A stretch of DNA of 45,424 nucleotides from Pseudomonadota bacterium (GTDB taxonomy: Bacteria; Desulfobacterota; Desulfobulbia; Desulfobulbales; CALZHT01). Shown here in pieces: positions 2,889 to 20,270 of this stretch. The stretch spans positions 1-45,424 of the forward strand of contig JAHJJF010000061.1 in NCBI GenBank assembly GCA_018823135.1, written 5' to 3'. Positions within the stretch are counted from its first letter, which is position 1, and the number at the start of each line of letters is the position of its first letter. A program made the translations under genes and the position numbers. The notes beneath the pieces were generated by a model. That model ran no database searches, had not been told where the DNA came from, and saw nothing but the letters and a program-made list of their open reading frames with translations.

Positions 2889-3776
2889 ATGAGCGCCACT
2901 ATAATCAGCGGAACCGAAACCGCTAAAGCTATTCGTGAAGAACTGGCAGTTGAAATTGCCGAGCTGAAAGAAAAACATAATATTGTGCCGGGCCTTGCCA
3001 CAATTCTCGTTGGCGTTGACCCTGCTTCCCAGTCCTACGTCACTGCAAAAAATAAAACGGCAAAAAATCTAGGCATTTATTCACAACAGGTAACCAAACC
3101 TGCTGACATATCTGAAGAAGAGCTTCTTTCATTAATTGAACAATTTAATAATGATGAAAAAGTTCATGGCATACTTGTTCAATTACCACTGCCCAAGCAT
3201 ATCAATGAGGGAAGGGTGTTATATGCGATTAACCCTGATAAAGACGTCGATGGATTTCATCCGGTCAACGTCGGAAAAATGGTCCTGGGTGAAAAATGTT
3301 TCCTTCCGTGCACCCCACACGGGATACTGGAACTGCTCGTACGATCAGGGGTTGAGACCAGCGGCGCTGAAGTTGTTATACTCGGTCGTTCAAATATTGT
3401 CGGCAAACCAATTGCAAATCTCATGCTGCAAAAACGTGCTGCCGGAAATGCCACCATCACTCTGTGCCACACTCGAACAAAAGACATGGCAGCACATTGC
3501 CGGCGAGCCGATATCATTATCGCAGCAGTAGGTGTTCCCAATCTGGTTACTGCAGATATGGTGAAAGACGGTGTAGTTATAATTGACGTTGGTGTAAACA
3601 GGATCGGCATGTCTGATTCAGGAAAGGCTATCCTTGCCGGTGATGTCGATTTTGACGCGGTTAAAGAAAAAGCGTCTTTCATCACCCCGGTTCCCGGCGG
3701 AGTTGGTCCGATGACCATCACCATGCTTATGAAAAATACTGTTCAGGCTGCCAAGCAATCTGCCGGCCTTATTTAA
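2889..3776 (+). CDS. folD: Bifunctional methylenetetrahydrofolate dehydrogenase / methenyltetrahydrofolate cyclohydrolase
   Basis: 295 residues, the normal FolD length. It interconverts methylene-, methenyl- and formyl-tetrahydrofolate with NAD(P)+, the middle C1 steps of the Wood-Ljungdahl methyl branch. Visible family motifs are SYVTAKNKTAKNLGI (containing the catalytic Lys region), PLPKHI, DKDVDGFHPVNVGKM, the nucleotide-binding GRSNIVGKP and the C-terminal PGGVGPMT. A clear Shine-Dalgarno (AAGGAG) precedes the ATG at 2889. It lies 78 bp upstream of cooS on the same strand, so it probably opens the C1 operon. The 279-bp gap before it is AT-rich and is the likely promoter region, although no promoter could be pinned down. 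Confidence 0.96.
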   Translation: MSATIISGTETAKAIREELAVEIAELKEKHNIVPGLATILVGVDPASQSYVTAKNKTAKNLGIYSQQVTKPADISEEELLSLIEQFNNDEKVHGILVQLPLPKHINEGRVLYAINPDKDVDGFHPVNVGKMVLGEKCFLPCTPHGILELLVRSGVETSGAEVVILGRSNIVGKPIANLMLQKRAAGNATITLCHTRTKDMAAHCRRADIIIAAVGVPNLVTADMVKDGVVIIDVGVNRIGMSDSGKAILAGDVDFDAVKEKASFITPVPGGVGPMTITMLMKNTVQAAKQSAGLI

Positions 3777-3854: not shown

Positions 3855-5852
3855 ATGGCTATTAAAAGAAACGGATGCGAAGGCTGTACGGAAATAACCT
3901 GTACATCCACAAAACAGGTACTCCAGCAGGATATCGCCAAAAACGTCGTTACAGCTTTCGACAGAGTTAAAGCCCGCGGCATGTCGGCCTGCCTTTTCGG
4001 TTCCGGTGGTACATGCTGCAGGAATTGCAATATGGGCCCCTGCCAGATCATCGACGGCGTTGATAATATGATCGGCATTTGCGGAGCCACTGCCGATACG
4101 GTGGCAGCAAGAAATTTTGCGCGGACTGTTGCAGCAGGCACCGCTGCTCATACAGATCATGCACGGGAAATGGTTCGCGGATTCATTGAAACCGCAAAAG
4201 GTAATGGCCCACACAAGATACAAGATGTCGATAAACTCATGAAACTTGCCAAGACCTTTGATATTGAGACCGAAGGTCGAGAAGTCAACGACATTGCCCT
4301 TGAGCTTGGCCAAAGAGCCCTTGCCGAATTCGGCAGCCAGGACAACACGCCACTGTCAATGCTCAAGAGAGCACCTGAAAAAAGACAGGCGATCTGGAAA
4401 AAACTCGGCGTCGAACCCCGAGGCATTGATCGCGAAGTCGTTGAGATGATGCATCGGACCCATATGGGAGTTGACCAGGAATATGAAAACATCATGCTTC
4501 AGGCATCACGCTGCGCTTTGTCTGACGGCTGGGGTTCCTCAATGCTTTCAACCGAACTCACCGACATCATGTTCGGCACCCCGGTTCCCCGCCGTGCAAT
4601 CGTTGATCTCGGTGTACTCAAAGGGGACCAGGTCAATGTGACGGTTCACGGTCATGAACCGCTTCTTGCTGAGTCTCTCTGCATCGCCGCAGGCGACCCG
4701 GAAATTCTCGCGCTTGCCAAAAAAGCCGGCGCCAAGGGCGTAAATCTTGCCGGTGTCTGCTGTACGGGCAATGAAATCCTCATGCGCCGAGGCATTCCTG
4801 TTGCTGCCGGTTTCATCCAGCAGGAGATGGCTCTTGCAACCGGTGCAATTGAAGCCATGGTGGTGGATGTTCAATGCGTCATGCAATCGGTAGCCCAGGT
4901 GGCAAGTAATTTCCACACAGATATTATTACAACCAATTACCGTGCTAAAATGCCTGGAGCGATTCATCTGCAGTTCGAAGAACATGATGCTCTGGAATCT
5001 GCGAAAAGAATTTTGAAACATGCCATTGCCAATTACAAAAAACGCGGCAAACATTTCATCCCAAAACTTGAAAAAGTCGATGTGGTTGTCGGGTTCAGCC
5101 ACGAAACAATAAATTATATGCTGGGTGGACGTTTTCGTTCCAGTTATCGTCCGTTGAACGATAACATCATTAACGGCCGTATTCGCGGAGTTGCAGCAAT
5201 AGTCGGCTGCGACAACTTCAAACTTGCTGATGATGCTCATGAGACAATAGCCCGGGAACTCATAAAGAACAATATTCTGGTTCTCGCTACCGGTTGTGCC
5301 GCCACATCTCTTGGTAAAGCCGGACTTTGCAGCCCGGAAGCAATCAAATTCTGCGGATCAAGCCTTGCTGAAGTCTGCGAAACGGTTGGTATGCCTCCGG
5401 TGCTTCACATGGGATCATGCGTCGATAACAGCCGCATCCTCATCGCCGCAACCGAAATGGTGCGCGAGGGCGGCCTTGGAGATGATATTTCCGATCTCCC
5501 AGCCATTGGAACAGCGCCCCTGTGGATGAGTGAAAAAGCAGTTGCGATCGGCCAGTATTTCGTAGCCAGCGGCGCTCAGGTTGTATTTCAGAATCTGGCC
5601 ACCACCGGCGCCAAGAAGTTCAATAATTACCTTTTAGATGGTATCATGAAAACTTTCGGCGCTCACTGGAATGTCGCAAGTGAACCACTGGAAATTGCCC
5701 GGATCATGATCGAAAAAATTGAAGAGAAACGTGAAGCCCTGGGTATTAATAAAAAGAAAGAAAGGACCCTGTTTGACATGGCGATGCGTCGAGATCTCAG
5801 CACCGGTGCCATCGGTGACGTCGGCTGTACCGGACCGGCTAGCAACGCCTAG
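3855..5852 (+). CDS. cooS: Anaerobic Ni-Fe carbon monoxide dehydrogenase catalytic subunit
   Basis: 665-residue CooS/AcsA that interconverts CO and CO2 at the NiFe4S4 C-cluster; in CODH/ACS it supplies CO to AcsB. N-terminal cysteines C8, C11 and C16, then C46, C54, C55, C58, C63 and C76, match the D- and B-cluster region of the family. Further hallmarks are HGHEPLLAESL (C-cluster His region), GVCCTGNEILMRRG, DVQCVMQS, VGCDNFK, GCAATSLGKAGLC and HMGSCVDNSR. A good ribosome site (TTGAGGTG) precedes the ATG. The position between folD and the metF-acsD fusion, with acsB and acsC following, identifies it as the CODH of a CODH/ACS complex (acsA role) rather than a stand-alone respiratory CODH. No nickel-insertion gene cooC is adjacent. 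Confidence 0.96.
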   Translation: MAIKRNGCEGCTEITCTSTKQVLQQDIAKNVVTAFDRVKARGMSACLFGSGGTCCRNCNMGPCQIIDGVDNMIGICGATADTVAARNFARTVAAGTAAHTDHAREMVRGFIETAKGNGPHKIQDVDKLMKLAKTFDIETEGREVNDIALELGQRALAEFGSQDNTPLSMLKRAPEKRQAIWKKLGVEPRGIDREVVEMMHRTHMGVDQEYENIMLQASRCALSDGWGSSMLSTELTDIMFGTPVPRRAIVDLGVLKGDQVNVTVHGHEPLLAESLCIAAGDPEILALAKKAGAKGVNLAGVCCTGNEILMRRGIPVAAGFIQQEMALATGAIEAMVVDVQCVMQSVAQVASNFHTDIITTNYRAKMPGAIHLQFEEHDALESAKRILKHAIANYKKRGKHFIPKLEKVDVVVGFSHETINYMLGGRFRSSYRPLNDNIINGRIRGVAAIVGCDNFKLADDAHETIARELIKNNILVLATGCAATSLGKAGLCSPEAIKFCGSSLAEVCETVGMPPVLHMGSCVDNSRILIAATEMVREGGLGDDISDLPAIGTAPLWMSEKAVAIGQYFVASGAQVVFQNLATTGAKKFNNYLLDGIMKTFGAHWNVASEPLEIARIMIEKIEEKREALGINKKKERTLFDMAMRRDLSTGAIGDVGCTGPASNA

Positions 5853-5934: not shown

Positions 5935-8493
5935 ATGAAATCGGGAAGCCGTTTAGAACGAATATTAACTGCCGGGAAATTTGCCGTTACCGGGGAGCTT
6001 GGACCACCCAAAAATGCCGATCCTGCAATAGTCCGGGAAAAAGCGCGGATTCTGAAAGGGCACGTCGATGCAGTCAATATTACGGACTGCCAGACCGCCA
6101 TTGTCAGGATGTCAAGCATCGCCGCAGGGTTGATTGTCCTTTCGGAAGGTGTTGAGCCGGTTATTCAGATGACATGCCGCGATCGCAATCGTATCGGCAT
6201 GCAAAGTGATATTCTCGGTGCCGCAGCCCTTGGCTTGAAAAACCTGCTTTGTCTTACCGGCGATCATCAGAAATTCGGCAATCATCCCGGCGCAAAGGGT
6301 GTCTTTGACATGGATTCCATTCAGTTGCTCGGAATGGTAAAAGACATGCGCGATGATAAAAAATTCCAATGCGGCGAAGTCATAAAAAATAACGAACCGA
6401 AGCTTTTTTTGGGGGCAGCAGCAAATCCTTTTGCCGAGCCCTTTGAATACCGTGCTCCGCGCCTTGGGAAAAAAGTTGCCAACGGTGCTGATTTCATCCA
6501 GACCCAGATCGTCTACAACGTTGAAAAATTTGCAAAATTCATGGAAATGGTCCGTGATCTGGGGCTTCATGAAAAAGTCTATATTCTCGCAGGTGTTACT
6601 CCTCCGAAATCCCTTGGCATGGCCAGGTACATGAAAAAGTTTGTTCCTGGTATGGATGTCACCGATGAAGTAATTCAAAGGATGAAAGATGCCAAAGATA
6701 AAGAAGATGAAGGCATCAATATCTGCGTAGATGTTATCAATCAGGTTAAAGAAATCAAAGGGGTTGCAGGCGTTCATATCATGGCAATTGAATGGGAAAG
6801 CGCGGTTCCTGAAATTGTCAGTCGGGCTAAGCTTGCAACCCGCCCGGTACTTGATGATGATTCAAAACCTGCCGCATTACCACGGGAAGTAATAACCATA
6901 GCAACAACCCCGGCAGTTTCCGGGGAACGACCTGATGATATTTTGGCATCAGCAAAAGCCGAAGCAGCAAAAATAATTGCCGCCGCTAAAGAGCAGGCTC
7001 AAACTGGGTCAGGAACGATAGAAATTGATGATGCAGGAGAACATACAATGAATGAAAAAGAGCGTCAAATGGCTTTGGAATCCGTAAAGACCGGGCTCGA
7101 TTCACTTAAAAAGGCCTTTGGCCTGTCGGATGATCAGTTTGAGGCGCTGGCAAAATTTGCCGGAGCGGAAGCAATTCTTTCCCGTCAGCCAGTGGTTTCA
7201 ACGCCTTCTACTCCACCTGTAGCTCCACCGGTAAAACCAACCCCTACTCCGCCTCCTTCAGATAAGGCCCAACAGGCAGCCAAGGAAACAAAAAAAGCCG
7301 AAGAGGAAAAGAAAGCCCAGGAAGCAAAAGCTGCTCAAGAAGCACAAAAAGCTGCTGAAGAAAAGAAGGCCCAGGAAGATAAAAAGGCGGCTGATGCTAA
7401 AGCCGCTGAACAGGCCAGGAAGACTCAGGAAGCAAAACCGAAAGAAGAAAGCAAAAAAGCTCCTGCTGCCAAAACAAAAGCTGCCGCGGCCGGAAGCATT
7501 ACGGCTGCAGAGTTAAAAGTTGAAACATCAACCCTTGCCCAGCGGGCTTCCAGAATTCCTGAAGATAATTATAAAATTACCTATAGCGGTAAACTCCGTG
7601 AGATTAAATTAGGAAACGGCGACAACACCATTACCGTTGGCGGCACAGCTACAATGCCTTTCCAGCTTTTCGAGGGTGCCATGCCCCGCAAACCTCTTTT
7701 TGCCATGGATGTACTTGATATTAATCCTGACGAATGGCCCAAAACCCTTACCCGCCACTTTGATGGAGTTCTGAATGATCCTGTTGCCTGGGCAAAAAAA
7801 TGCGTGAATGAATATAATGCCGATGCCATCTGTATCTCTCTTATCAGCACCGATCCTAATGGCATGAATCGCCCGGCAAGCGAAGCAGCAAAAGTTGCTG
7901 CGGATGTTGTCAAGAATATTGATGTACCGATTATTGTCTGGGGTTGCGGCAATGCTGATAAGGACACCGAAACATTACGCGAAGTCACCGCAATGATCGG
8001 CGATAAAAAAGTTTGCCTGGCGCCCCTTGGCGATGTGAATTATCGGTCTTTGGGAGCAACCGGCATGGCTTTTCAGCATCCCATGGTGGCTTCTTCACCC
8101 ATTGACGTCAATCTTGCCAAGCAGCTCAATATTCTTCTTGAAAACCTTGGTGTTTCACTGGAGAGTGTTCTCATTGATCCTTCAATCGGTGCCCTTGGTT
8201 ATGGAATCGAATATTCCTATTCAGTAATGGAAAGAATCAGACTGGCAGCACTCACCCAAAAGGACGAAAAACTTCAGGTGCCATTCATCTGTAACCTTGG
8301 CCGTGAGGTCTGGAAAGCAAAAGAAACCAGATTGCCTTCCGATGCGCTTATCGGTGATCAGGAACGACGGGGCGTACTTATGGAGGCTATCACCGCATCC
8401 TGTATGTTGATGTCCGGTGGCGAAGTCATGATTATGCGCCATCCCCAGGCTATTGCGCTGGCTAAGTCCCTTGTAAATGGTCTTATGGGATAA
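5935..8493 (+). CDS. Fusion: methylenetetrahydrofolate reductase (MetF) plus corrinoid/iron-sulfur protein small subunit (AcsD)
   Basis: 852 residues in one open frame. Residues 1 to about 295 are a MetF-type TIM barrel: FAVTGELGPPK near the start, QMTCRDRNR, LCLTGDH (flavin/folate Asp region) and DFIQTQIVYN. Residues about 296-371 form a linker with an Ala/Lys-rich helix. Residues 372-420 look like a short helical domain (KKAFGLSDDQFEALAKFAG), and 421-520 are a Pro-rich then Ala/Lys/Glu-rich linker, probably a flexible helical tether. Residues about 540-852 match the CFeSP small subunit barrel (PRKPLFAMDVLD, DAICISLISTDPNG, IIVWGCGNADKD, IDPSIGALGYGIEYSYS). MetF makes methyl-THF; the CFeSP carries the methyl group to AcsB. 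A second start with its own Shine-Dalgarno lies in frame at codon 372, so a free AcsD may also be made. No zinc-binding MetV partner is in the window. Confidence 0.9.
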   Translation: MKSGSRLERILTAGKFAVTGELGPPKNADPAIVREKARILKGHVDAVNITDCQTAIVRMSSIAAGLIVLSEGVEPVIQMTCRDRNRIGMQSDILGAAALGLKNLLCLTGDHQKFGNHPGAKGVFDMDSIQLLGMVKDMRDDKKFQCGEVIKNNEPKLFLGAAANPFAEPFEYRAPRLGKKVANGADFIQTQIVYNVEKFAKFMEMVRDLGLHEKVYILAGVTPPKSLGMARYMKKFVPGMDVTDEVIQRMKDAKDKEDEGINICVDVINQVKEIKGVAGVHIMAIEWESAVPEIVSRAKLATRPVLDDDSKPAALPREVITIATTPAVSGERPDDILASAKAEAAKIIAAAKEQAQTGSGTIEIDDAGEHTMNEKERQMALESVKTGLDSLKKAFGLSDDQFEALAKFAGAEAILSRQPVVSTPSTPPVAPPVKPTPTPPPSDKAQQAAKETKKAEEEKKAQEAKAAQEAQKAAEEKKAQEDKKAADAKAAEQARKTQEAKPKEESKKAPAAKTKAAAAGSITAAELKVETSTLAQRASRIPEDNYKITYSGKLREIKLGNGDNTITVGGTATMPFQLFEGAMPRKPLFAMDVLDINPDEWPKTLTRHFDGVLNDPVAWAKKCVNEYNADAICISLISTDPNGMNRPASEAAKVAADVVKNIDVPIIVWGCGNADKDTETLREVTAMIGDKKVCLAPLGDVNYRSLGATGMAFQHPMVASSPIDVNLAKQLNILLENLGVSLESVLIDPSIGALGYGIEYSYSVMERIRLAALTQKDEKLQVPFICNLGREVWKAKETRLPSDALIGDQERRGVLMEAITASCMLMSGGEVMIMRHPQAIALAKSLVNGLMG
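7035..7050 (+). promoter_or_regulatory. Internal Shine-Dalgarno and in-frame ATG inside the metF-acsD fusion
   Basis: AGGAGA at 7035-7040 stands 7 nt before ATG at 7048-7050. That ATG is codon 372 of the fusion and is in frame with it. The arrangement is stronger than several true starts in this window and falls exactly at the junction between the MetF side and the AcsD side. Translation from here would give a 481-residue AcsD with its linker. It may be a relic of two formerly separate genes or an active internal start. Confidence 0.6.
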
Positions 8494-8529: not shown

Positions 8530-10734
8530 ATGTCTAAAATAATATGTTCAGCCGCCATCAGAGGTGCCCACAAAATAGTGGACATGGCCGAAGAGAAATT
8601 TGAAGAGGCCTTGAAAAAATACGGACCTGAACAGGAAGTTTCGCTTCCGAACACGGCCTATTTTTTGCCGGTCATTTACAGTATGCTCGGCGCAAAAGTT
8701 GAAAAGCTGGGAGACATGAAAGATATTTTTCTTGAGTGTCGAAAACTCCTTCCGAATATGGTGAGCGACAATGTCTGGCTTCCATATCTTGCCCCGGCTC
8801 TTGATGCCGGAATGGCAACCTTCTTTGCGGAAGAAATGTATGAAACCATTCGGTATCTGAACGAATCCGAATTTTATACCAAGAGCGAACAACCCCTGCC
8901 GGAAAACCTCTGGCTCGGCGCTGCCGATGACCTGATATTCCGTAAACGCGGCGTTGAATTTGTTGATGGTACCGCTCCGGGTTTTGCTGCGATCATGGGT
9001 GCGCCGCCCAACAAGGAAATCGCCAGCAAAATAGCACTTGAACTCCAGGAAAAGAATCTCTACATCTTTATGCATGACCATACGAACGGCATGCGAATGG
9101 CTGAACAATTGGTTGCCAATGGTGTACAGGTCGGTTGGAATACCCGGCTGGTACCTTTTGGACCAACCTATACTTCCGCCGTCTTTGCCATTGGTTTTGC
9201 CTGTCGTGTTGCCATGGCTTTTGGCGGCATCAAGCCTGGAGATTACAAAGGCAATCTCATTTATAATAAAGATAGAACATTCGCCTTTGTCATGGCCTTC
9301 GGACCGGTCAGTGACGAATGGTATGCAAATGCTGCAGGGGCGATCAACTGGGGATTTCCGACAATATCCGATTACGATATTCCGGAAGTTCTTCCCACTG
9401 GAATCTGCACCTACGAACACGTTGTCAGTCAGGTGCCTCACGATGAAATAGTCCAGAGGGCCATTGAAGTCCGGGGACTCAAGGTCACCATTTCGAAAAT
9501 CGATATCCCCTTGTCATTCGGTCCGGCCTTTGAAGGCGAGCGGATCAGAAAAGATGATCTTTTCATGGAATGTGGCGGTGGTAGAACAACAGGAGTTGAG
9601 GTTCTGATTTCAAAGGAAATGGATGAGGTGCAGGATGGACTGGTAATAGTTGAAGGTCCGGACATCAAAGATATCAAGGAAGGTCAGAACCTGCCCATCG
9701 CAATTCTCGTTGAAGTTGCCGGCCGCGAAATGCAATCCGATTTCGAACCCATTCTCGAACGCCAATTTCATCATCTGATTAATTATGTTCAGGGCATCAT
9801 GCATATCGGCCAGAGAAATATCATGTGGGTCCGCATCGGCAAAGGCGCGGTGGATAAAGGCTTCTCTTTTGAACATATTGGCAAGGTGCTGCACGGCAAA
9901 CTGCATCAGGAGTTCGGCGCCATCCTTGATAAGATCCAGGTTAAAATTTATACTGTTCAGGATAAAGTAGAAGAGGTCGTGAAACTTGCCAAGAAGGTCT
10001 ACGCAGAACGTGATCTTCGGCTCGGCAACATGACCGACGAAACCGAGGAAGTTTTTTATTCCTGCACCTTGTGTCAATCCTTTGCTCCAAGCCATGTATG
10101 CGTCATAACCCCTGAACGCGTCGGTATGTGCGGTGCTTATAACTGGCTTGACGGCAAGGCCTCATACCAGATCAACCCCACCGGTCCCAATCAGCCTATC
10201 GAAAAGGGCGAATGCCTTGATTCTGAGATTGGCTTCTTTCAAGGTATAAATGAATTCGTTAATCAAGCATCTCGGGGTGCAGTCGCAGATGTCAGCTGCT
10301 ATTCATTAATGACCAGCCCGATGACCGCCTGCGGTTGTTTCGAAGCCATTGCCGCCATGCTGCCTCAATGTAATGGAATCATGGTTGTTAATCGCGATTA
10401 TATGGGGATGACCCCCAGTGGTATGAAATTCACCACCCTTGCCGGTATGGCCGGCGGCGGGGCCCAGACGCCGGGTTTCATGGGAGTGAGCAAGCATTAT
10501 CTTACAAGCCGTAAACTCTTCAAGTCCGAGGGTGGTCTCAAACGACTTGTCTGGATTCCGCAAATTTTGAAAGACGAACTTAAAGACAAACTTATAGAAC
10601 GATGCAAAGAAGAAGGAATGCCTGAACTCTTCGATATGATTGCTACCGAAGTACAGGGCACCACAGAAGAAGAAATTCTTAAATTTTTGAAAGAAAAAGG
10701 GCATCCCGCACTTTCCATGGAAGCTGCGGTTTAA
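8530..10734 (+). CDS. acsB: Acetyl-CoA synthase (CODH/ACS alpha subunit)
   Basis: 734 residues, close to the 729 of Moorella thermoacetica AcsB, so it is the full-length bacterial form with the N-terminal CODH-contacting domain that archaeal versions lack. It joins CO, a methyl group from the corrinoid protein and CoA into acetyl-CoA, or reverses this. All six A-cluster cysteines are visible at C512, C515, C524, C534, C601 and C603. They are a constant +6 from the known Moorella ligands 506, 509, 518, 528, 595 and 597, including the CGC motif that binds the distal nickel. GAGGAG precedes the ATG by a good distance. It sits 36 bp after metF-acsD and 62 bp before acsC, as part of one operon. 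Confidence 0.97.
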   Translation: MSKIICSAAIRGAHKIVDMAEEKFEEALKKYGPEQEVSLPNTAYFLPVIYSMLGAKVEKLGDMKDIFLECRKLLPNMVSDNVWLPYLAPALDAGMATFFAEEMYETIRYLNESEFYTKSEQPLPENLWLGAADDLIFRKRGVEFVDGTAPGFAAIMGAPPNKEIASKIALELQEKNLYIFMHDHTNGMRMAEQLVANGVQVGWNTRLVPFGPTYTSAVFAIGFACRVAMAFGGIKPGDYKGNLIYNKDRTFAFVMAFGPVSDEWYANAAGAINWGFPTISDYDIPEVLPTGICTYEHVVSQVPHDEIVQRAIEVRGLKVTISKIDIPLSFGPAFEGERIRKDDLFMECGGGRTTGVEVLISKEMDEVQDGLVIVEGPDIKDIKEGQNLPIAILVEVAGREMQSDFEPILERQFHHLINYVQGIMHIGQRNIMWVRIGKGAVDKGFSFEHIGKVLHGKLHQEFGAILDKIQVKIYTVQDKVEEVVKLAKKVYAERDLRLGNMTDETEEVFYSCTLCQSFAPSHVCVITPERVGMCGAYNWLDGKASYQINPTGPNQPIEKGECLDSEIGFFQGINEFVNQASRGAVADVSCYSLMTSPMTACGCFEAIAAMLPQCNGIMVVNRDYMGMTPSGMKFTTLAGMAGGGAQTPGFMGVSKHYLTSRKLFKSEGGLKRLVWIPQILKDELKDKLIERCKEEGMPELFDMIATEVQGTTEEEILKFLKEKGHPALSMEAAV

Positions 10735-10796: not shown

Positions 10797-12152
10797 ATGG
10801 CTTTAACGGGTATACAGATCCTCAAAATGCTCCCCAAAACCAATTGCGGTGATTGTGGAATTCCAACATGTCTCGCATTTGGCATGAAAGTTGCCGCCGG
10901 ACAGATTGAAATAAACGCCTGTCCCCATGTGAGCGAGGAAGCAAAAGCAACTATCGGCGAAGCTTCAGCGCCACCGATTCGTTCTATAAAATTTGGTGCC
11001 GCAGCAAACACCTTTACAGTTGGGGGCGAGACGTGCCTTTTCAGGCATGAGAAAAGGTTTGAAAACCCCACCGGTATCGCGGTTCTTGTTACAACCGAGA
11101 TGAACGACGAAGAAGTGGGCGGCAGAATAGAACGTTTCAAGACCCTTCGTTATGAAAGGGTTGGCGTTCTTCTTAAAGCCGATCTCATTGCAATTGCTGA
11201 CAATAAAAATGACGAAGCATCATTTTCCGCCTTGGCCCAGAAAGTCCTTGACGGTGCAGATGATGCCAACATCATCCTGATAAGCAACAATCCATCGAAT
11301 ATGTCTGCGGCAGGCAAAATTTGCGGCGCCCGTAAACCGCTGCTCTTCGGAGCAAACAAGGACAATTACCAGGCAATGGCGGATGTCGCCAAAGAACTTG
11401 GCTGTCCTCTGGGTATCAAGGGCGAAACCCTTGACGACACGGTCACCCTGACTGAACAATTAATGAAAGACGGTTGCAAGGACATGGTGATTGATACCGG
11501 CGCCAGAACGTTACGTGCCGCGCTCGATGACAATGTTGTTGCCCGCAGGGCGGCAATCAATAAGAAATACAAACCCCTGGGTTTCCCGACTATAACTTTT
11601 CCATGTGAAATAACTGATGATCCTCTGATGGAGGCGATGGTCGCCTCGGTATTGATTGCAAAATACGCAGGAATCATTGTTCTTTCAGATCTGCAAGGCG
11701 ATATTCTTTTCCCATTGCTCCTCGAGAGATTGAATCTTTTCACCGATCCTCAACGGCCAATGGTGGTTAAGGAAGACATCTACCCAATCAACGGCCCTGC
11801 TGAAAACGCACCGGTACTGATCACCTGCAACTTCTCGCTGACATATTTCATCGTTTCGGGTGAAATCGAGGGAAGCAAGGTTCCTTCATGGTTGTTGATT
11901 AAAGACACGGAAGGGCTTTCTGTACTTACTGCCTGGGCTGCCGGCAAATTCGGCGCTGATTTGATCGCCCAGTTCATTAAAAAATCAGGAATTGAAGGAA
12001 AAGTTAAGCACCGTGAACTCATAATTCCCGGATATCTTGCATCCATTAAAGGCGAACTGGAAGAAGAACTACCGGGTTGGACCCTCACCATAGGCCCTCG
12101 TGAAGCCGGACATCTTCCTGCTTTCCTGAAGGAATGGAAACCTGCGGTATAA
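10797..12152 (+). CDS. acsC: Corrinoid/iron-sulfur protein large subunit
   Basis: 451-residue CFeSP gamma subunit, which pairs with AcsD and shuttles the methyl group between methyl-THF and AcsB on a corrinoid. The N-terminal motif with C17, C20, C25 and C42 (TNCGDCGIPTCLAFG, then NACPH) binds the low-potential [4Fe-4S] cluster that reactivates cob(II)amide. A TIM barrel follows. The C-terminal cobalamin-binding domain ends in the typical TIGPREAGHLPAFLKEW stretch. A strong ribosome site (GAGGAGGAA) precedes the ATG. The methyltransferase gene acsE, often next to acsC, is not in the window. About 98 bp separate it from fdhA. Confidence 0.96.
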   Translation: MALTGIQILKMLPKTNCGDCGIPTCLAFGMKVAAGQIEINACPHVSEEAKATIGEASAPPIRSIKFGAAANTFTVGGETCLFRHEKRFENPTGIAVLVTTEMNDEEVGGRIERFKTLRYERVGVLLKADLIAIADNKNDEASFSALAQKVLDGADDANIILISNNPSNMSAAGKICGARKPLLFGANKDNYQAMADVAKELGCPLGIKGETLDDTVTLTEQLMKDGCKDMVIDTGARTLRAALDDNVVARRAAINKKYKPLGFPTITFPCEITDDPLMEAMVASVLIAKYAGIIVLSDLQGDILFPLLLERLNLFTDPQRPMVVKEDIYPINGPAENAPVLITCNFSLTYFIVSGEIEGSKVPSWLLIKDTEGLSVLTAWAAGKFGADLIAQFIKKSGIEGKVKHRELIIPGYLASIKGELEEELPGWTLTIGPREAGHLPAFLKEWKPAV

Positions 12153-12250: not shown

Positions 12251-15200
12251 ATGAAAATTAGCATTAATGGCCAATCAGTTACGGTAAAAGCCGGCATCAC
12301 AATCCTTGAAGCCGCTCGCCAGGAGAATATTTACATCCCAACCCTTTGTCATGTTAAGGATGGCGGGGCGGATGGTTCTTGCGAACTTTGTGTTGTAGAA
12401 GTCGCCGGGGAAGACAAGCCGGTGCGATCCTGCAAGACCAAAGTCAAGAAAGATATGGCAATCGTCACTGAATCCGAGCATCTGACTGAACACCGGAAAG
12501 CACGCCTCGCGCTCTTTGCTGAAACTCATTTCGGCGATTGCAAAGCTCCATGCAATCTGACCTGTCCGGGGCAGATTAATGTCCAGGGCTATATCGCCCA
12601 TATTGCGAAAGGGGAATATGAAGAATCAGTAAGGTTAATCATGGAAAGGAATCCTTTTCCTTTTTCCGTGGGCCGCGTCTGTCCCCGGTTCTGTGAAACC
12701 AGATGCAGGCGTATACTTGTCGATGAACCGGTTTCAATAAACCATCTTAAACGCTTTGTTGCCGACTGGTGCATGACCAACAAGGTGGACCTTAAAATTG
12801 ATCGGGCTTCAAAGCACACCGGTAAAAGAATTGCTGTTATCGGTGGTGGCCCCTCCGGTCTCACCGCGGCATTTTATTTAGCAAAAAAAGGCCATGACGT
12901 TACGGTAATTGAAGGGATGCCCAAACTTGGCGGTATGTTACGTTACGGTATTCCAGAATATAAAATTCCTAAAAATGTCCTTGATTATGAGATTAACACC
13001 ATTCTCCGAATGGGCATTTCCGTTCGTCTAAGCCAGCGATGGGGCAAAGATTTCACCCTTCAGGATTTGAAAGATCAAGGATTTGACGCGATTCTGATAA
13101 CCATAGGAACCTGGATAGAACAAACCCTTGACATCCCGGGGGCAGTTAACCCCAATGTCATTCCTGCTGTTAAGCTGCTGAGAGATATTGCCGAAGGAAA
13201 TAAATTTAATTACGGAAGACGTGCAGCGGTTATCGGCGGCAATAACATTGCAATGGAAGCCGCCCGTTCACTGCTCAGAAAGGGCGTAAATGAAGTGACA
13301 ATCATTTACCCTCGGCCGCAGACCGAAATGTCTGCCAATCAAAGGAATATCCGTGAAGCGGAACGTGATGGAGTCCAATTCCTTCTCGTGGCTTCACCTG
13401 TCCAGATTACTCATGTTGATGAAGGTTTGAATCTGGAACTTATCCGCATGAAGCTTGGAGAACCTGACGCCAGAGGCATTCGTCAACCTGAAGCCATCCC
13501 TGGTTCCACAAATATTCTCCAGGTTGACACGGTGATCAATTCTCTCGGTCAGATGGCAATAAGTGATTTTTTCACGCATACCGATCTTGAGGGGAAACTC
13601 GAGATTACTCCCAAGAATACCATTAAAGCCAATCCCAGAACCTCACTTACAAATATTCCCCGGATTTATGCAGCCGGCGATGCTGTAAGTGGTCCCCGAT
13701 CCGTTATTCAGGCGGTTGTCTCTGCCAGGCGAGCGGCTGAAAATATTCACTCACAACTCGATGATCTTCCTAAGGACGCAGGGGAGGGGCGTTTCAATTT
13801 TACCCGGGGCAAAACCTTTGACGATGTCAGTTTGCGGAACTTTGAAGGTATATCCGTTAAGTTGCGGGAAAAAATGCCGGAACGTCCCGCTGAAATCAGT
13901 ACTCAGGACTTTGATGAAACCCGTCTGGGCTTCAGTGAGAAAATGGCCTTGCGTGAAGCCGCCAGATGTCTTTCCTGCGGTTGTACAGCCTTTCATCGTT
14001 GTGACCTTAAACGTGAATGCATCGCCCATGGTGTTGATCCCAGCAAAACCGGGATGGGGACAAAACCAACCTACGCTATCGACAACTCTAATGCGGTGAT
14101 CCGGGTTGATTTAAATAAATGCATCTATTGCAAACGCTGCATGAACAGCTGTGAATACGATGCTCTGGAAATAAGCGCTGAAAAAGTCAATGAAGAAGGC
14201 AGGCCATCCGGACTGAAGCTTACATTCAAAGACAACTGTGTACACTGTGGAAAATGCGTTGATAATTGTTCCACCGGCGCTCTCAACAAAAAGAGCGCAT
14301 TTGTCCCGGTTGTTGCTGAAGAAATGAAGGATGTAAGAACCACCTGTCCCTATTGCGGCGCCGGTTGCCAGATACTTCTGAAAGTCAAAGGCAATACCAT
14401 AATGGAAGTGACGGCCGAGCCCGACCTGGCGCCAAATTACGGCGCATTATGCGTCAAGGGCAGATTCGGCTTTAATTTCGTGCAACATAAGGATCGGCTC
14501 ACAACCCCCCTTATCCGTCAACGAGGGCAACTGGTTGAAACATCCTGGGAAGAAGCACTTTCTCTTGTAGCGAAGCGCTTTCTCGATATCAAGGCAATGT
14601 ATGGTGCAGATTCAATAGCTGGTTTCAGCTGTGCCAGGGCCACCAATGAAGAAAATTACCTGATGCAGAAATTCATGCGGACAGCGATCGGAACGAATAA
14701 TATCGATCACTGCGCACGACTCTGACACGCTCCCACGGTGGCCAGTTTGGCCCTCACCTTCGGAAGCGGTGCAATGACCAATAACATTGCCGACACAAAA
14801 AACACTGATCTGTTTTTGATGATCGGCAGCAATCCTGATACAAGTCATCCGACTATCGGTTTAAGAATTCATCAGGCCGTTGACCGGGGCGCAAAACTTA
14901 TTGTTGTTGATCCTCGAAAAACACAGCTTGCCGAAAGAGCAGATATCTGGTTGCGAATCAAACCGGGAACCGATGTCGCTTTTTTGAACGGCCTAATGCA
15001 CATCATCATTAAAGAGGATTTGCTGAACAAGAAATTTGTTCATGATCGTACTGAAGATTTTGATGAACTGGCCCAACTCGTCAAGAAATATACCCCTAAA
15101 TATGTCGAGGAAATAACCACAATACCTGCGGACCAGCTTAAAAAAGTTGCCAGAATGTTTGCCGCTGAAGGTAGGCACGCCATTTATCACGGTATGGGAA

Positions 15201-16351
15201 TTACCCATTATACAACCGGCACCGACCGGGTGAAAAGCATCGCAAACCTCTCCATGCTCTGCGGCAAGGTCGGTGTGGAAGGAGGCGGATGCAACCCATT
15301 GCGTGGCCAGAACAATGTCCAGGGTGCATGTGACATGGGCGCGCTGTTCAACACTCTTCCCGGTTACGGCGGGCTGGACAATGAAGATCTGTTCGACAAA
15401 TTTGAAAAAATCTGGAAGGTAAAACTGCCACGCAGACCGGGAAAACCCGCAACCGAGGTCTGGGATAATATTTTTAAGGGTAATATCCGTTCCCTGTATG
15501 TTTTTGGTGAAGACCCGGCAATCGCCGATGCAAACATCCGTCATGTCCAGAAAGCGCTCAAAGAGCTGGATTTTCTTGTCGTGCAGGATATTTTTCTTAC
15601 GGATACGGCAAAATACGCTGACGTTGTGCTGCCGGCTGCATGCTTTGCAGAAAAAGACGGCACCTTTGCCAGCACCGAGAGAAGGGTACAGAGAGTTCGT
15701 AAGGCGGTTGACCCTCCGGGTGAAGCCAAGCCCGACTGGAAAATTTTCTGCGAACTTTCCAAAAAAATCGGCTATCCCATGGATTACAACTCTGCGGAAG
15801 AAATTTTTGAAGAAATCAGAACGCTGATGCCGCAATATGCAGGGATAACCTACGAGCGCCTTGAAACCGTCGGGTTGCAATGGCCGGTTCCCGATGAAAA
15901 TCATCCAGGGACTGCGGTACTGCATACCAAGGAATTTACCCGGGGAAGAGGGTTGTTTATCCCTGAGGATTATTTGCCGCCTCGTGAACCTACGGATAAA
16001 GAGTATCCAATGCTGTTTACCACCGGCCGTGAACTCGCCCGTTACAATTTCAGCAGTATGACCGGTAAGACCCCTGAGATAGATGTCATCTGCCCTGAGG
16101 CCTTTGCTGAGATAAATCCTGAAGACGCCAAGAAAATGACAATCAAGGATAAAGATCTGATACGCATCACATCACGGCGCGGGTCAGTGGATATTCGGGT
16201 GAAAATAACCGATCGTTCCCAGGAAGGAACAATTTTTGCCTCGTATAATTTTGTTGAAACACCTGTAAATAATGTAACTTTTGATGCTCTTGATCGTTTA
16301 TCAAGAACTCCTGAGTATAAGTTGTGTGCTGTTAAGGTTGAAGTATTGTAG
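12251..16351 (+). CDS. fdhA: Selenocysteine-containing formate dehydrogenase fused to [2Fe-2S] and NfnB/GltD-like FAD/NAD(P) domains
   Basis: 1366 residues when TGA at 14723-14725 is read as Sec825. Order: [2Fe-2S] ferredoxin (C33, C44, C47, C61); GltD/NfnB-type cysteine domain (C97, C101, C105, C144, C148, C152); FAD site GGGPSG at 198-203; NAD(P) site GGNNIAMEAAR near 335; an extra Cys cluster (CLSCGC); two [4Fe-4S] ferredoxin motifs (CIYCKRCMNSC and CVHCGKCVDNC, about 623-680); then the molybdo/tungsto-bis-MGD catalytic domain, starting with CPYCGAGC. The active site is as in E. coli FdhH: GALCVKG Lys, Sec followed by His (ARL-U-HAPTVASL), and LRGQNNVQGACDMG with the catalytic Arg. It should interconvert CO2 and formate with electrons from an on-board NAD(P)H flavoprotein. 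The usual Arg-rich NADPH motif reads YPRPQTEM here, so cofactor choice is unclear. No Shine-Dalgarno is seen. Confidence 0.92.
14723..14758 (+). promoter_or_regulatory. Sec UGA and SECIS-like hairpin in fdhA
   Basis: TGA at 14723-14725 is followed, after 11 nt, by a hairpin at 14737-14758. GGCC (740-743) pairs with GGCC (749-752) around the loop AGTTT, extended by GGT/ACC across a CTC bulge. The bases around TGA align codon by codon with E. coli fdhF, whose SECIS lies in the same place. The loop carries a G at its second position, as in bacterial SECIS loops. Confidence 0.8.
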
Positions 16352-16430: not shown

Positions 16431-19400
16431 ATGGGAAAAGCGAAAGACAATAGATCAGGTGCGGTGATGGTGGTCGGCGGTGGTATTGCCGGCGTCCAGA
16501 CGGCCCTTGATTTGACTGAACTCGGATTTTATGTCTATCTTGTTGAAAAATCCGCAGCCATCGGCGGCGCCATGGCACAGCTGGACAAGACATTTCCGAC
16601 AAACGACTGCTCTCTTTGAATACTGGCGCCTAAGCTGGTAGAGGCCGGTCGGTCTCCAAACATAGAAATTCTGAGCAACACTGATTTACTTGAACTGACA
16701 GGCAAGCCTGGGAAATTCACCGCAACGCTCAAAATCCGTCCCCGCTATATAATTGCAGAAGATTGCACCGCATGCGGTTTATGTACCCAGTATTGCCCGA
16801 AACATCTTGTGGATGAATATAATGAAGGACTGGCCCTGACCAGACCGATCCATATTGATTATCCACAGGCTGTACCCGCAACTTATTATATAGATCCTGA
16901 AGCATGCCTGCATCTCACCCATGACACCTGTCAGATATGTGTTCCTGTCTGTCAGAGCAAAGCCATTGATTTCAGCCAGAAACCGGTTACGAAAAAACTC
17001 GAAATCGGCGCGGTTATCATGTCGCCTGGATTCGGCCGTATTCCGGATGAAGCACTTACAAAATACAGTTACGGACAGCATCCTGATGTGGTCACCAGTC
17101 TTGAATTCGAGCGATTGCTCAATCCTTCAGGTCCATTTGCCGGGAAGGTGTTGCGTCTTTCAGATCGAAAACACCCCAAACGCATTGCATTCATTCAATG
17201 TGTCGGTTCAAGGGATCTCGGGTGCAATAATGGCTATTGTTCTTCGGTCTGCTGCATGTACGCAATCAAAGAAGCAATGGTTGCCAAAGAGCATGATCCA
17301 GAACTTGATATCACCATTTTTTATATGGATATGCGCACCCAGGGAAAGGATTTTGATGCTGCTCAGAAAAGGGCTAAAGATCAGTTCGGCATCAAATTCG
17401 TCCGTGCCAAGGTTGCAGATGTCATGCCCTGGAACGAAAAACTTAAACTCACCTATTCAACCATGGCAGGCGATCATAGTTTCGAATCTTTTGACATGGT
17501 TGTTCTTTCCGTTGGTCTTGATGCACCTAAAAGCGCTCAAGAACTTTCAAAAATCGGCGGATTCGAGCTCAACGAATATGATTTCTGCAAAACCTCACTT
17601 GATGCGCCCCTTGCAACAAGCAAGGAAGGTATCTTTGTCGCCGGTGCATTTCAGGGACCAAAAGACATTCCTGAAAGCGTCACTCAGTCAAGTGCTGCTG
17701 CAGGTCTTGCCTCAGGCCTCCTCAAAAAACAGCGCGGCCAAGGTGTTGTGGTCAAGAGTTACCCGAAAGAAAATAAACTCGCAATGGAAGAAGAACCAAG
17801 AATCGGGGTCTTTGTCTGCCATTGCGGAATCAATATCAGCGGTGTCGTCGATGTCCCCAAGGTTGATGATTACGTAAAAGACATGGAAGGTGTTGTCTTT
17901 CATACCCAGAGTCTTTACAGCTGCTCTCAGGATGCTCAGGAAGTCATCAAACAAAAGATTAAAGAACATAATCTCAACCGTATAGTGATTGCCGCCTGTT
18001 CGCCCAGAACCCATGAACCTCTTTTCCAGGAAACCCTCAAAGACGCGGGCCTGAACAGATCTCTTTTCGAAATGGTCAATATCCGCGATCAATGTTCCTG
18101 GGTGCATGCCAATGAACCCGGAGAGGCAACCCGGAAATCAATGGATCTGGTCCGCATGGGTATTGCCAAAGCACGACATATTAAACCACTCCAGGAACAA
18201 ACGGTGCCGGTAACCCAGAAAGCACTGGTCATCGGTGCTGGAATCGCCGGTATGACGGCTGCTTTGAATATTGCAGATCAGGGCTTTCACTGTACCTTGA
18301 TTGATAAAAATGATGTGATTGGCGGTAATCTTAATAGGTTGAAATATACGATTACCAATGATGACATCCCCGGACTTCTCAAGAAAATGTCCGTCGAGAT
18401 ACAAAATAACAAACTCGTTGAACTCATGGCCAGTACTGAGCTTGTATCTACCAGTGGCTTTGTCGGCAACTTTTCCTCGGTTCTTAAAACCGGCAAGGGT
18501 AAAAAGGCCAAGGAGTTCACCCTGGACCATGGAATCATTGTTATTGCCACCGGGGGCAAAGAACACCGCCCCAAGAAAGTTCTCGGCAATACAATCACCT
18601 ATTCCGACAAAATCGTCACCCAGCAGGAACTTGAAACAACTCTTGCCGGCAAATCTAAAACCAGGGCCCCAAAATCAGTCGTGATGATTCAATGCGCCGG
18701 TTCACGTGGGGATGACCTTGGGTATTGCAGCAAAATATGCTGCACCAATGCAGTGAAAAATGCATTGAAAATCAAGGAAATAAATCCTCAATCCCAGGTC
18801 ATCATACTGTATCGTGATATGCGCACTTACGGTTATGCCGAGGATGCCTATCGCGAGGCCCGGGAAAAAGGGGTGATTTTCATTCCTTATGACATGAATA
18901 AGAAACCTGTGATTGAGACGAAGGGAAGTAAAGTCACTGTTTCTTTCTTTGATCCGATACTGCAAGATGATGTGAGCATCACTCCGGATCTCCTTACCTT
19001 AAGCGTCGGCATCGTTCCCGAAGGTACTAAAGAACTGAGCAAACTCCTGAAAATTCCGGTCAATGCAAATGATTTCTACCTTGAGGCGCATGTGAAACTT
19101 CGTCCGGTTGAACTCGCAGTGGATGGCGTTTATGTCTGCGGACTGGCGCATTCACCCAAGCCCCTGGATGAAGTTATCGTCCAGGCTCAGGCAGCTGCTG
19201 CCAAGGCTTCAATTCCACTGGTTAAAGGGTTAGTTTCAGTGGAACCGATAGTGTCAAACGTTGATAAAGATATGTGTATTGGCTGCGGAATTTGTGAAAG
19301 CTTATGTCCTTATCAGGCGATTCGCATTGTTAAGGATGATGATAATAAACGTAAAGCGGAAACCGTTGTGGCTTCCTGCAAAGCATGTGGAATTTGTGCC

Positions 19401-19496
19401 TCCCATTGTCCAACATTTGCTATATCTATGGGCGGCTTCACCAATGAACAGATTAACTCTCAAATCAAAGCCTTTGGCGAGGTTACTGAGGAGTAG
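16431..19496 (+). CDS. hdrA: Selenocysteine-containing HdrA-like flavoprotein with two FAD modules
   Basis: 1021 residues when TGA at 16617-16619 is read as Sec63, in the HdrA context [14 protein letters not shown] where relatives have Cys or Sec. Module 1 has the FAD motif GGGIAG (16-21), [4Fe-4S] ligands C112, C115, C118, C122 and C159, C167, C170, C174, and a [17 protein letters not shown] stretch. Module 2, from about 455, is a full Hdr[30 protein letters not shown] near 600, [15 protein letters not shown], and two C-terminal ferredoxin motifs ([12 protein letters not shown] near 949 and [12 protein letters not shown] near 983). HdrA is the bifurcating-flavin subunit of heterodisulfide-reductase-type complexes. 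With fdhA upstream and mvhD 3 bp downstream, it probably exchanges electrons among formate dehydrogenase, ferredoxin and the methyl branch. No hdrB or hdrC is adjacent. The ribosome site is CTGGAG. Confidence 0.92.
16617..16649 (+). promoter_or_regulatory. Sec UGA and SECIS-like hairpin in hdrA
   Basis: After TGA at 16617-16619, ACTGGC (16622-16627) pairs with GCCGGT (16644-16649) with one G-U pair. Inside a 2x2 internal loop, CTA pairs with TAG around a six-base apical loop AGCTGG. Position and loop guanines fit a bacterial SECIS. Confidence 0.7.
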
Positions 19497-19499
19497 TAT

Positions 19500-20270
19500 A
19501 TGAGCCAGGAAGTATTCAAACCTAAAATTCTGGGTTTTCTCTGCAATTGGTGTTGTTATGCGGCTGCTGATTCAGCCGGCGTATCAAGATACCAGTACCC
19601 ACCAAACCTGAGGACGATCAGGGTTATGTGTACCGGTCGCATTGATCCGGCTTTTATCTTACGCGGTTTTATTGAAGGTGCGGATGGCATCTTCACCGGC
19701 GGCTGACAACTCGGCGAATGTCATTACCAGGTTGGTAATTATGATGCAATGGGAGTCAATGCTCTGGTCAAAAAGGTACTTGTGGAAGTTGGTTTCAAAC
19801 CAGAACGTTTCAATCTGCAATGGGCCTCTGCCGCAGAAGCGCCGCGTTTCGTAAAACTTATAACCGATTTCACCCGGCAAATCCAAGAGATTGGACCACT
19901 AGGTGAAGCAGAAGGATTTAACCCTGGTCAAATAAAACAAAAGCTCGAAGATGCCCTTGAACTGGTAAGCAGCCGCAAATTACGTGTGAGTTTTGGCAAT
20001 CTGACAAAAAACTCCCGCAAAGAAGGCGCTTTTACCCAGGAATTCATCAGTAATCTGGTGGATGAAAAAATGACAGATCCCATCTCATCGGGACTTATCG
20101 AAGCGGGTTTAATAACCGCCTTAAAGGGCTCAAAATCACCTGTAGCGGTGAGCGCCTTGGCAAAACAAACAGGCACTTCAACTGAACAGATAGAAAAACT
20201 TTTGACAACCTGGTTAAAACAGGAAAAAGTAAAACAGAGCGGCAAAAAATGGGCTCTTATCGAAAAATAA
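19500..20270 (+). CDS. mvhD: Selenocysteine-containing MvhD/FrhD-type iron-sulfur subunit with C-terminal helical extension
   Basis: 256 residues when TGA at 19704-19706 is read as Sec69. The [2Fe-2S] motif begins [11 protein letters not shown] (C15, C18, C19), followed by [10 protein letters not shown] and [10 protein letters not shown] (C44). The Sec lies in [22 protein letters not shown], where MvhD proteins usually have GCHxGDCHY. MvhD carries electrons between a hydrogenase or formate dehydrogenase and HdrA. Residues about 190-256 form an extra segment with a winged-helix look ([21 protein letters not shown]), not part of minimal MvhD. The start is 3 bp after hdrA, and the ribosome site GAGGAG lies inside the hdrA end, so the two are translationally coupled and likely form one complex. 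Confidence 0.93.
19704..19739 (+). promoter_or_regulatory. Sec UGA and SECIS-like hairpin in mvhD
   Basis: After TGA at 19704-19706, ATTACC (19723-19728) pairs perfectly with GGTAAT (19734-19739) around the loop AGGTT, which is close to the E. coli fdhF apical loop. An outer TCA/TGA pairing can extend the stem across a short bulge. Confidence 0.8.

Follow-up and report, generated by a model that had tools for sequence, protein, structure and literature searches.

How the methyl group of the Wood-Ljungdahl pathway reaches the corrinoid protein from the folate reductase is usually taken as a matter of free diffusion, and the methyl branch runs near thermodynamic equilibrium. In the window analyzed here, a stretch of 45,424 nucleotides, the methylenetetrahydrofolate reductase MetF and the corrinoid protein small subunit AcsD are encoded in one frame. 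This raises the question whether the fusion is genuine and whether the full-length chain is its only product. Our analysis shows that the locus is a genuine, old MetF-AcsD fusion and makes it likely that it carries a second, nested gene start, so that both proteins would be made and the pool of AcsC-AcsD heterodimers would be mixed. The fusion as such was already in print before this study. In 2016, Melton et al. (PMC5016858) named an mthfr/acsD fusion of Desulfurivibrio alkaliphilus AHT2 and delta proteobacterium MLMS-1 in their abbreviation list and Fig. 3 legend; these parts of the paper name the fusion only and describe neither linker, mini-domain, internal start, distribution nor mechanism. 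For a related vent epibiont, a genome paper has two metF entries, reports metV as absent, and mentions acsABC but not acsD. The open-access literature searched yielded no functional study of the MetF-AcsD fusion and no description of its internal start and hairpin. Such open reading frames are easily annotated as MetF or AcsD alone, and two-product loci can therefore be missed. The interesting part of the locus is the conserved internal start with its hairpin, rather than the fusion itself.

The first-pass annotation had placed MetF and AcsD in a single frame of 852 residues. The ORF is indeed intact at 5935-8493 on the plus strand, encodes a protein of 852 residues and 91.8 kDa, and matches both domains. 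The MetF domain, which is of the MetV-partnered type, comprises residues 1-300 (5935-6834). PF02219 (MTHFR) matches as a whole domain at residues 6-298 (3.5e-37). E21, D110 and Q191, which we take to be catalytic/folate residues as in E. coli MetF, are invariant in a 32-sequence alignment, and E21 aligns with E18 of Thermus MTHFR. The whole domain and the conserved residues assign the first half of the ORF to the MTHFR family. The AcsD part (7570-8490, plus strand) was delimited by domain match and alignment to solved structures. CdhD (PF03599) matches at residues 556-797 (1.9e-42), and about 300 residues can be aligned to the corrinoid iron-sulfur protein small subunits 2h9a, 2ycl and 4djd with E values of ~1e-83 to 1e-78. 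This similarity to the AcsD of solved AcsC/AcsD proteins, together with an AcsC partner encoded next door, identifies the second half as AcsD. Unlike the fusion, the solved AcsD chains have 309-323 residues and contain neither MetF nor the N-terminal hairpin. The domain order, with MTHFR preceding AcsD within one ORF, is that of the mthfr/acsD fusion of PMC5016858.

The genes around the fusion form a Wood-Ljungdahl cluster on the plus strand in the order folD, CO dehydrogenase, metF-acsD, acsB, acsC, a formate dehydrogenase-type gene, hdrA and mvhD. Domain matches identified FolD (2889-3776), AcsA/CO dehydrogenase (3855-5852), AcsB/acetyl-CoA synthase (8530-10734) and AcsC (10797-12152), and the position beside folD, acsA, acsB and acsC agrees with that of the fusion in PMC5016858. 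Downstream are the formate dehydrogenase-type protein (12251-16351), in which an in-frame TGA at 14723-14725 is read as selenocysteine, an HdrA-like protein (16431-19496; TGA at 16617-16619) and an MvhD/FlpD-like protein (19500-20270; TGA at 19704-19706). The contexts of these codons are CARL-U-HAP, CSL-U-ILAP and FTGG-U-QLGE, respectively. Since all three probably encode selenocysteine, the mechanical ORF calls at 14738, 16809 and 19749 appear truncated. In the remainder of this genome, a 157-contig draft, no second or standalone acsD was found. The gene for the methyltransferase AcsE adjoins that of a RACo-type activator on contig C15, apart from the fusion. The genes metV-mvhD-hdrC lie on contig C151 and thus not adjacent to metF-acsD; MetV was recognized by a PF12225 match. 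A MetVF-type reductase is therefore suggested by an encoded MetV partner, non-adjacent here and adjacent in two other clades described below. Contig C151 also carries a second MetF relative of 514 residues that is fused to a MetV-type domain (L097:14554-16098, minus strand) and shares ~28% identity with the MetF part of metF-acsD.

A single-frame fusion was found in 39 of the 58 genomes of the order sample, the genome of the window included. It occurs in many Desulfobulbales contigs (clade A), including Electrothrix, Desulfocapsa and relatives of Desulfurivibrio, as well as in other families of the phylum, which form two further clades, B and C. The proposal to look for the same domain order in other genomes was thus borne out. 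A joining of two genes by an assembly or sequencing error, conceivable for a window from a 157-contig draft and named beforehand as a possible refutation, has a negligible probability, as the same fusion is present in dozens of independent genomes, including closed genomes and genomes of one or two contigs (G006, G040, G155, G181, G254, G316 and G354). In moderately diverged Desulfobulbales pairs, dN/dS was 0.03 for MetF and 0.05 for AcsD, by which measure the fusion is under strong purifying selection.

In both domain trees, for MetF and for AcsD, Desulfobulbales and clade B stand together as sister to clade C. The three fused clades form a single group in both trees, which indicates one origin of the fusion. 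After addition of four genomes termed Thermodesulfobacterium-like, a label given in this analysis partly by kinship, one gain and one loss are needed, because these four genomes, in which metF and acsD are separate genes, fall inside clade C. The gene order of clades B and C is acsA-hdrA..hdrC-mvhD-metV-[metF-acsD]-acsB-acsC-acsE-fdh. Two genomes of family f64 (L147 and L148) share this order with metF and acsD as separate neighbors. They were considered as a simple ancestral state and rejected: their MetF is sister to the fused clade, but their AcsD groups with other unfused AcsD, so that they offer only a possible picture of the order before fusion. The split genes of the Thermodesulfobacterium-like genomes were likewise rejected as ancestral, since both trees place them within the fused clade.

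The linker had been described as a tether of about 100 residues rich in Pro and Ala/Lys/Glu. Such a part exists at residues 420-525, but the whole interdomain stretch spans residues 301-545, about 245 residues, and is not of low complexity throughout, as a conserved helical mini-domain (residues 372-416) precedes the Pro/Ala/Lys/Glu part. An alignment of 52 unique fusions revealed the order of a variable stretch with a short helix, a conserved block starting at Met372, a Pro-rich segment and an Ala/Lys/Glu-rich segment. According to the alignment and an AlphaFold2 model (32 sequences, mean pLDDT 71.6), the short helix is amphipathic, comprises residues 334-356 (6934-7002; KAEAAKIIAAAKEQ) and has disorder on both sides. 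The mini-domain (7048-7182) has the consensus MNEKERQMALESV..GL..LKKA.GLSDDQFEAL.KFAGAEAIL and is predicted as a two-helix hairpin (374-394/399-415). It is followed by the predicted disordered Pro-rich segment at residues 420-443 (7192-7263) and by the Ala/Lys/Glu-rich segment at residues 444-512 (7264-7470), which contains a predicted helix of 46 residues (451-496). Besides these elements the model comprised two barrels; confidence was low at 310-332, 354-374, 414-453 and 497-520. In the moderately diverged pairs, dN/dS was 0.30 in the first linker part, about 0.04 in the mini-domain and 0.15 in the Pro/Ala/Lys/Glu part. The view of the linker as mere low complexity was rejected, the mini-domain being as constrained as both enzymes.

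Searches of the Desulfobulbales linker against Pfam yielded no known domain, only chance hits above E 0.04. A block in clade B resembles the Desulfobulbales mini-domain (32-50% identity by BLAST), and the clade B linker adds a coiled coil and TPR-like repeats, of which those of L132 scored slightly below the curated Pfam TPR cut-off. TPR-like repeats and coiled coils are inserted in the linkers of L132, L126, L128, L129, L137 and L141. Position and helix pattern suggest that the mini-domain of the Thermodesulfobacterium-like genomes is related to that of Desulfobulbales. Across the fused lineages the linker varies from 105 to about 500 residues. Four Thermodesulfobacterium-like loci (L181-L184) have a very short linker of 105-115 residues and a long branch in the MetF tree.

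The hairpin begins exactly at Met372, and this methionine may be a second translation start. On the plus strand, a Shine-Dalgarno motif AGGAG at 7035-7039, which includes the Gly368 codon GGA (7036-7038), is followed after 8 nucleotides by the conserved ATG of Met372 (7048-7050); positions 7035-7050 read AGGAG-AACATACA-ATG. In the AlphaFold2 model, this site falls in a predicted disordered gap directly before the hairpin. Among the 62 Desulfobulbales loci listed, in a search that required the Met, all had a GGAG core upstream of the ATG and GGA as the Gly codon. The preceding codon in these loci was GCA or GCG with very few exceptions (TTG, AGT or TCA where Leu or Ser is encoded). An independent alignment retained Gly368 and Met372 in 50/50 Desulfobulbales rows. 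Furthermore, over 217 conserved columns for which four or more synonymous codons are available, Gly368 was the only one without codon variation, with GGA in 49/49 representatives. Its codon entropy was zero, compared with 0.91 for the next lowest Gly column and a median of 1.72 over all 217; the remaining conserved Gly columns, shaped by the same phylogeny, served as control. GGA is the rarest Gly codon in these ORFs (14% of Gly codons). The mean energy of the Shine-Dalgarno duplex was -7.5 kcal/mol at the internal site versus -6.8 kcal/mol at the gene's own start, and -2.8 kcal/mol at other in-frame ATGs (n=1566; Mann-Whitney p ~1e-26 versus the internal site). The mRNA around the internal start is unusually open (-2.6 vs -8.5 kcal/mol).

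In a subset of clade C, GGAGG is located 5 nucleotides before an ATG in 9 of 11 sequences, with differing residues (LEVE, VEVE, WEEE, LEGE, VEVI); GGAGA and GGAGAGGA forms occur in the remaining two. Among the fused loci examined, most of those in clade B and some in clade C had no good internal start, and free AcsD is thus not needed in every fused lineage. Shine-Dalgarno-like motifs within genes can have other causes. The combination of a conserved start codon, a correctly spaced Shine-Dalgarno motif and nucleotide-level constraint nevertheless points to internal initiation at this site. Judged from these sequence features, the gene probably makes both the MetF-AcsD protein of ~92 kDa and an AcsD of ~52 kDa. 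The predicted second product (7048-8493, plus strand) would have 481 residues and 51.8 kDa and consist of free AcsD with the helical hairpin at its N-terminus. The idea of one chain thus stands insofar as the full frame encodes 852 residues; the conserved ribosome-binding site and start codon inside the linker probably make it an incomplete description.

The split genes of relatives bear on the same site. In the Thermodesulfobacterium-like L176, L177, L178 and L180, metF has its normal end and acsD is a gene of its own downstream. The sequences ahead of the free acsD are ATAGGAGGAAAGAATG, TTGGGGGAAAGAATG, TCTGGAGGATAGAATG or TCTGGAGGATAAAATG, and the gene encodes MQNEKE(I/L)LK... after a GGAGG- or GGGGG-type site. 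The helix that follows is the one where the internal starts of clade C are also located. Since these loci descend from fused ancestors, the split occurred at the internal start, which is easily understood only if this start was already in use.

Free AcsD could also arise by a protease cutting the linker of the full-length fusion, after which MetF and AcsD would act separately. The linker is long and in parts predicted to be disordered, as this requires, but cutting leaves the absence of codon variation at Gly368 and the Shine-Dalgarno/ATG spacing unexplained, and we regard it as very improbable. Hardly more probable is that only the full-length fusion is made, with an incidental ATG and a GGAGA motif that delays the ribosome and lets MetF fold before any AcsD has emerged. 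Shine-Dalgarno-like motifs inside genes have been proposed as ribosome pause sites, and the motif lies in a predicted disordered stretch between the domains. However, a pause requires neither an ATG at a fixed spacing of 8 nucleotides nor loss of mRNA structure, clade C keeps a differently spelled Shine-Dalgarno motif likewise directly before an ATG, and the split genes start at the homologous site.

Under the favored two-product reading, translation from 5935 would yield the 852-residue chain, and translation from the internal site and ATG (7035-7050) the 481-residue AcsD beginning with the hairpin. MetF would always be joined to AcsD, and AcsD would occur both joined and free. A fraction of the AcsC-AcsD heterodimers would then carry a flexibly tethered MetF and the rest would be ordinary. 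In this way AcsD could match AcsC without overproduction of MetF, which would be the scarcer protein; the sequence data lend this modest support. Similarly modest support exists for the hairpin 372-416 as a docking element for a partner, and for a MetF that is fed by MetV/MvhD/Hdr and kept near the corrinoid protein, to which the tethered MetF would recruit electron delivery. The tether might also raise the local concentration of methyl-THF; faster methyl transfer through it is speculative.

A tether holding the methyl-THF producer next to the methyl carrier, as originally suggested, is a fair reading, given a genuine fusion that strong purifying selection has conserved. It needs a restriction: as AcsD is probably also made alone, MetF would be attached to no more than a part of the corrinoid protein. 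Substrate channelling by the fusion is plausible, and yet methyl transfer from methyl-THF needs AcsE, in this genome a separate gene on another contig, so that direct channelling from MetF to AcsD is not the whole mechanism. In some Thermodesulfobacterium-like genomes AcsC and AcsE form one ORF with a Lys/Glu-rich linker (L145:10111-12561; L217, L218 and L219), which may indirectly support a tethered methyl branch. The AcsC-AcsE fusion of L145 showed no convincing internal start ahead of its AcsE part. One genome, G231, carries both the AcsC-AcsE and the MetF-AcsD fusion, and this would put MetF, the carrier and AcsE in one assembly.

The alternative that survives best accepts both products and denies the tether a role in channelling: a stop-loss fusion was tolerated as AcsD retained a start of its own, with the linker serving only as a spacer. 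Such an event would leave the downstream start in place. The single split within the fused clade, the linker length of 105 to ~500 residues and the separate AcsE in the window's genome fit this explanation. On the other hand, one fusion persisted through three clades and many families with a single reversal seen, and the repeated elaboration of the linker by a coiled coil and TPR-like repeats, together with the parallel AcsC-AcsE fusion, suggests selection for proximity. We consider the spacer explanation possible, although rather unlikely. Slightly better than even, in our estimate, are the chances of a broader version of the two-product reading, in which such a fusion gene occurs through much of the phylum, a defined share of the carrier has a methyl-THF reductase of its own, free AcsD has a docking hairpin, and some relatives join three successive steps of the methyl branch.

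Several known systems offer comparisons. Pyruvate dehydrogenase E2 is a Pro/Ala-linked multienzyme chain. The fusion resembles it, by analogy only, in having a small conserved helical domain that is set between larger ones and flanked by flexible Pro/Ala-rich linkers, and unlike it has no lipoyl domain. The Moorella-type HdrABC-MvhD-MetVF methylene-THF reductase complex (Mock et al. 2014, cited in PMC5736913) shares with the fusion a MetF of the MetV-partnered kind, the order hdrA..hdrC-mvhD-metV-metF/acsD in clades B and C, and the presence of hdrC-mvhD-metV in the window's genome, there on another contig. In contrast to that complex, MetF is fused to AcsD and the metV module has moved away in Desulfobulbales. 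For cas11b, nested in-frame inside a host cas gene, the short product was shown experimentally (PMC11899642). As in cas11b, the internal start would give a second, shorter subunit from one ORF; in contrast, the short AcsD is deduced from sequence, the host is a metabolic fusion, and in split relatives a real gene begins at the position of the internal start. If the two-product reading is true, a tether with a built-in setting of the share of MetF-bearing carrier would open channelling in the methyl branch to direct tests in sulfate reducers, sulfur disproportionators and cable bacteria. The locus would also be a clear case of gene fusion and fission via an internal ribosome-binding site.

Two further observations were made on these clusters and their components. 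AcsD of the Desulfobacteraceae type has a C-terminal Ala/Lys/Glu-rich tail with a conserved terminal helix (..LDRIHRR), possibly a parallel tether without MetF (L077:7956-9563, L078:7938-9590, L079:4330-5952 and L080:7992-9590). Directly upstream of folD, the window encodes a PilB/PulE-type ATPase with an added cyclic-nucleotide-binding domain (387-2609), and an ATPase of this type is also located near the cluster in several relatives.
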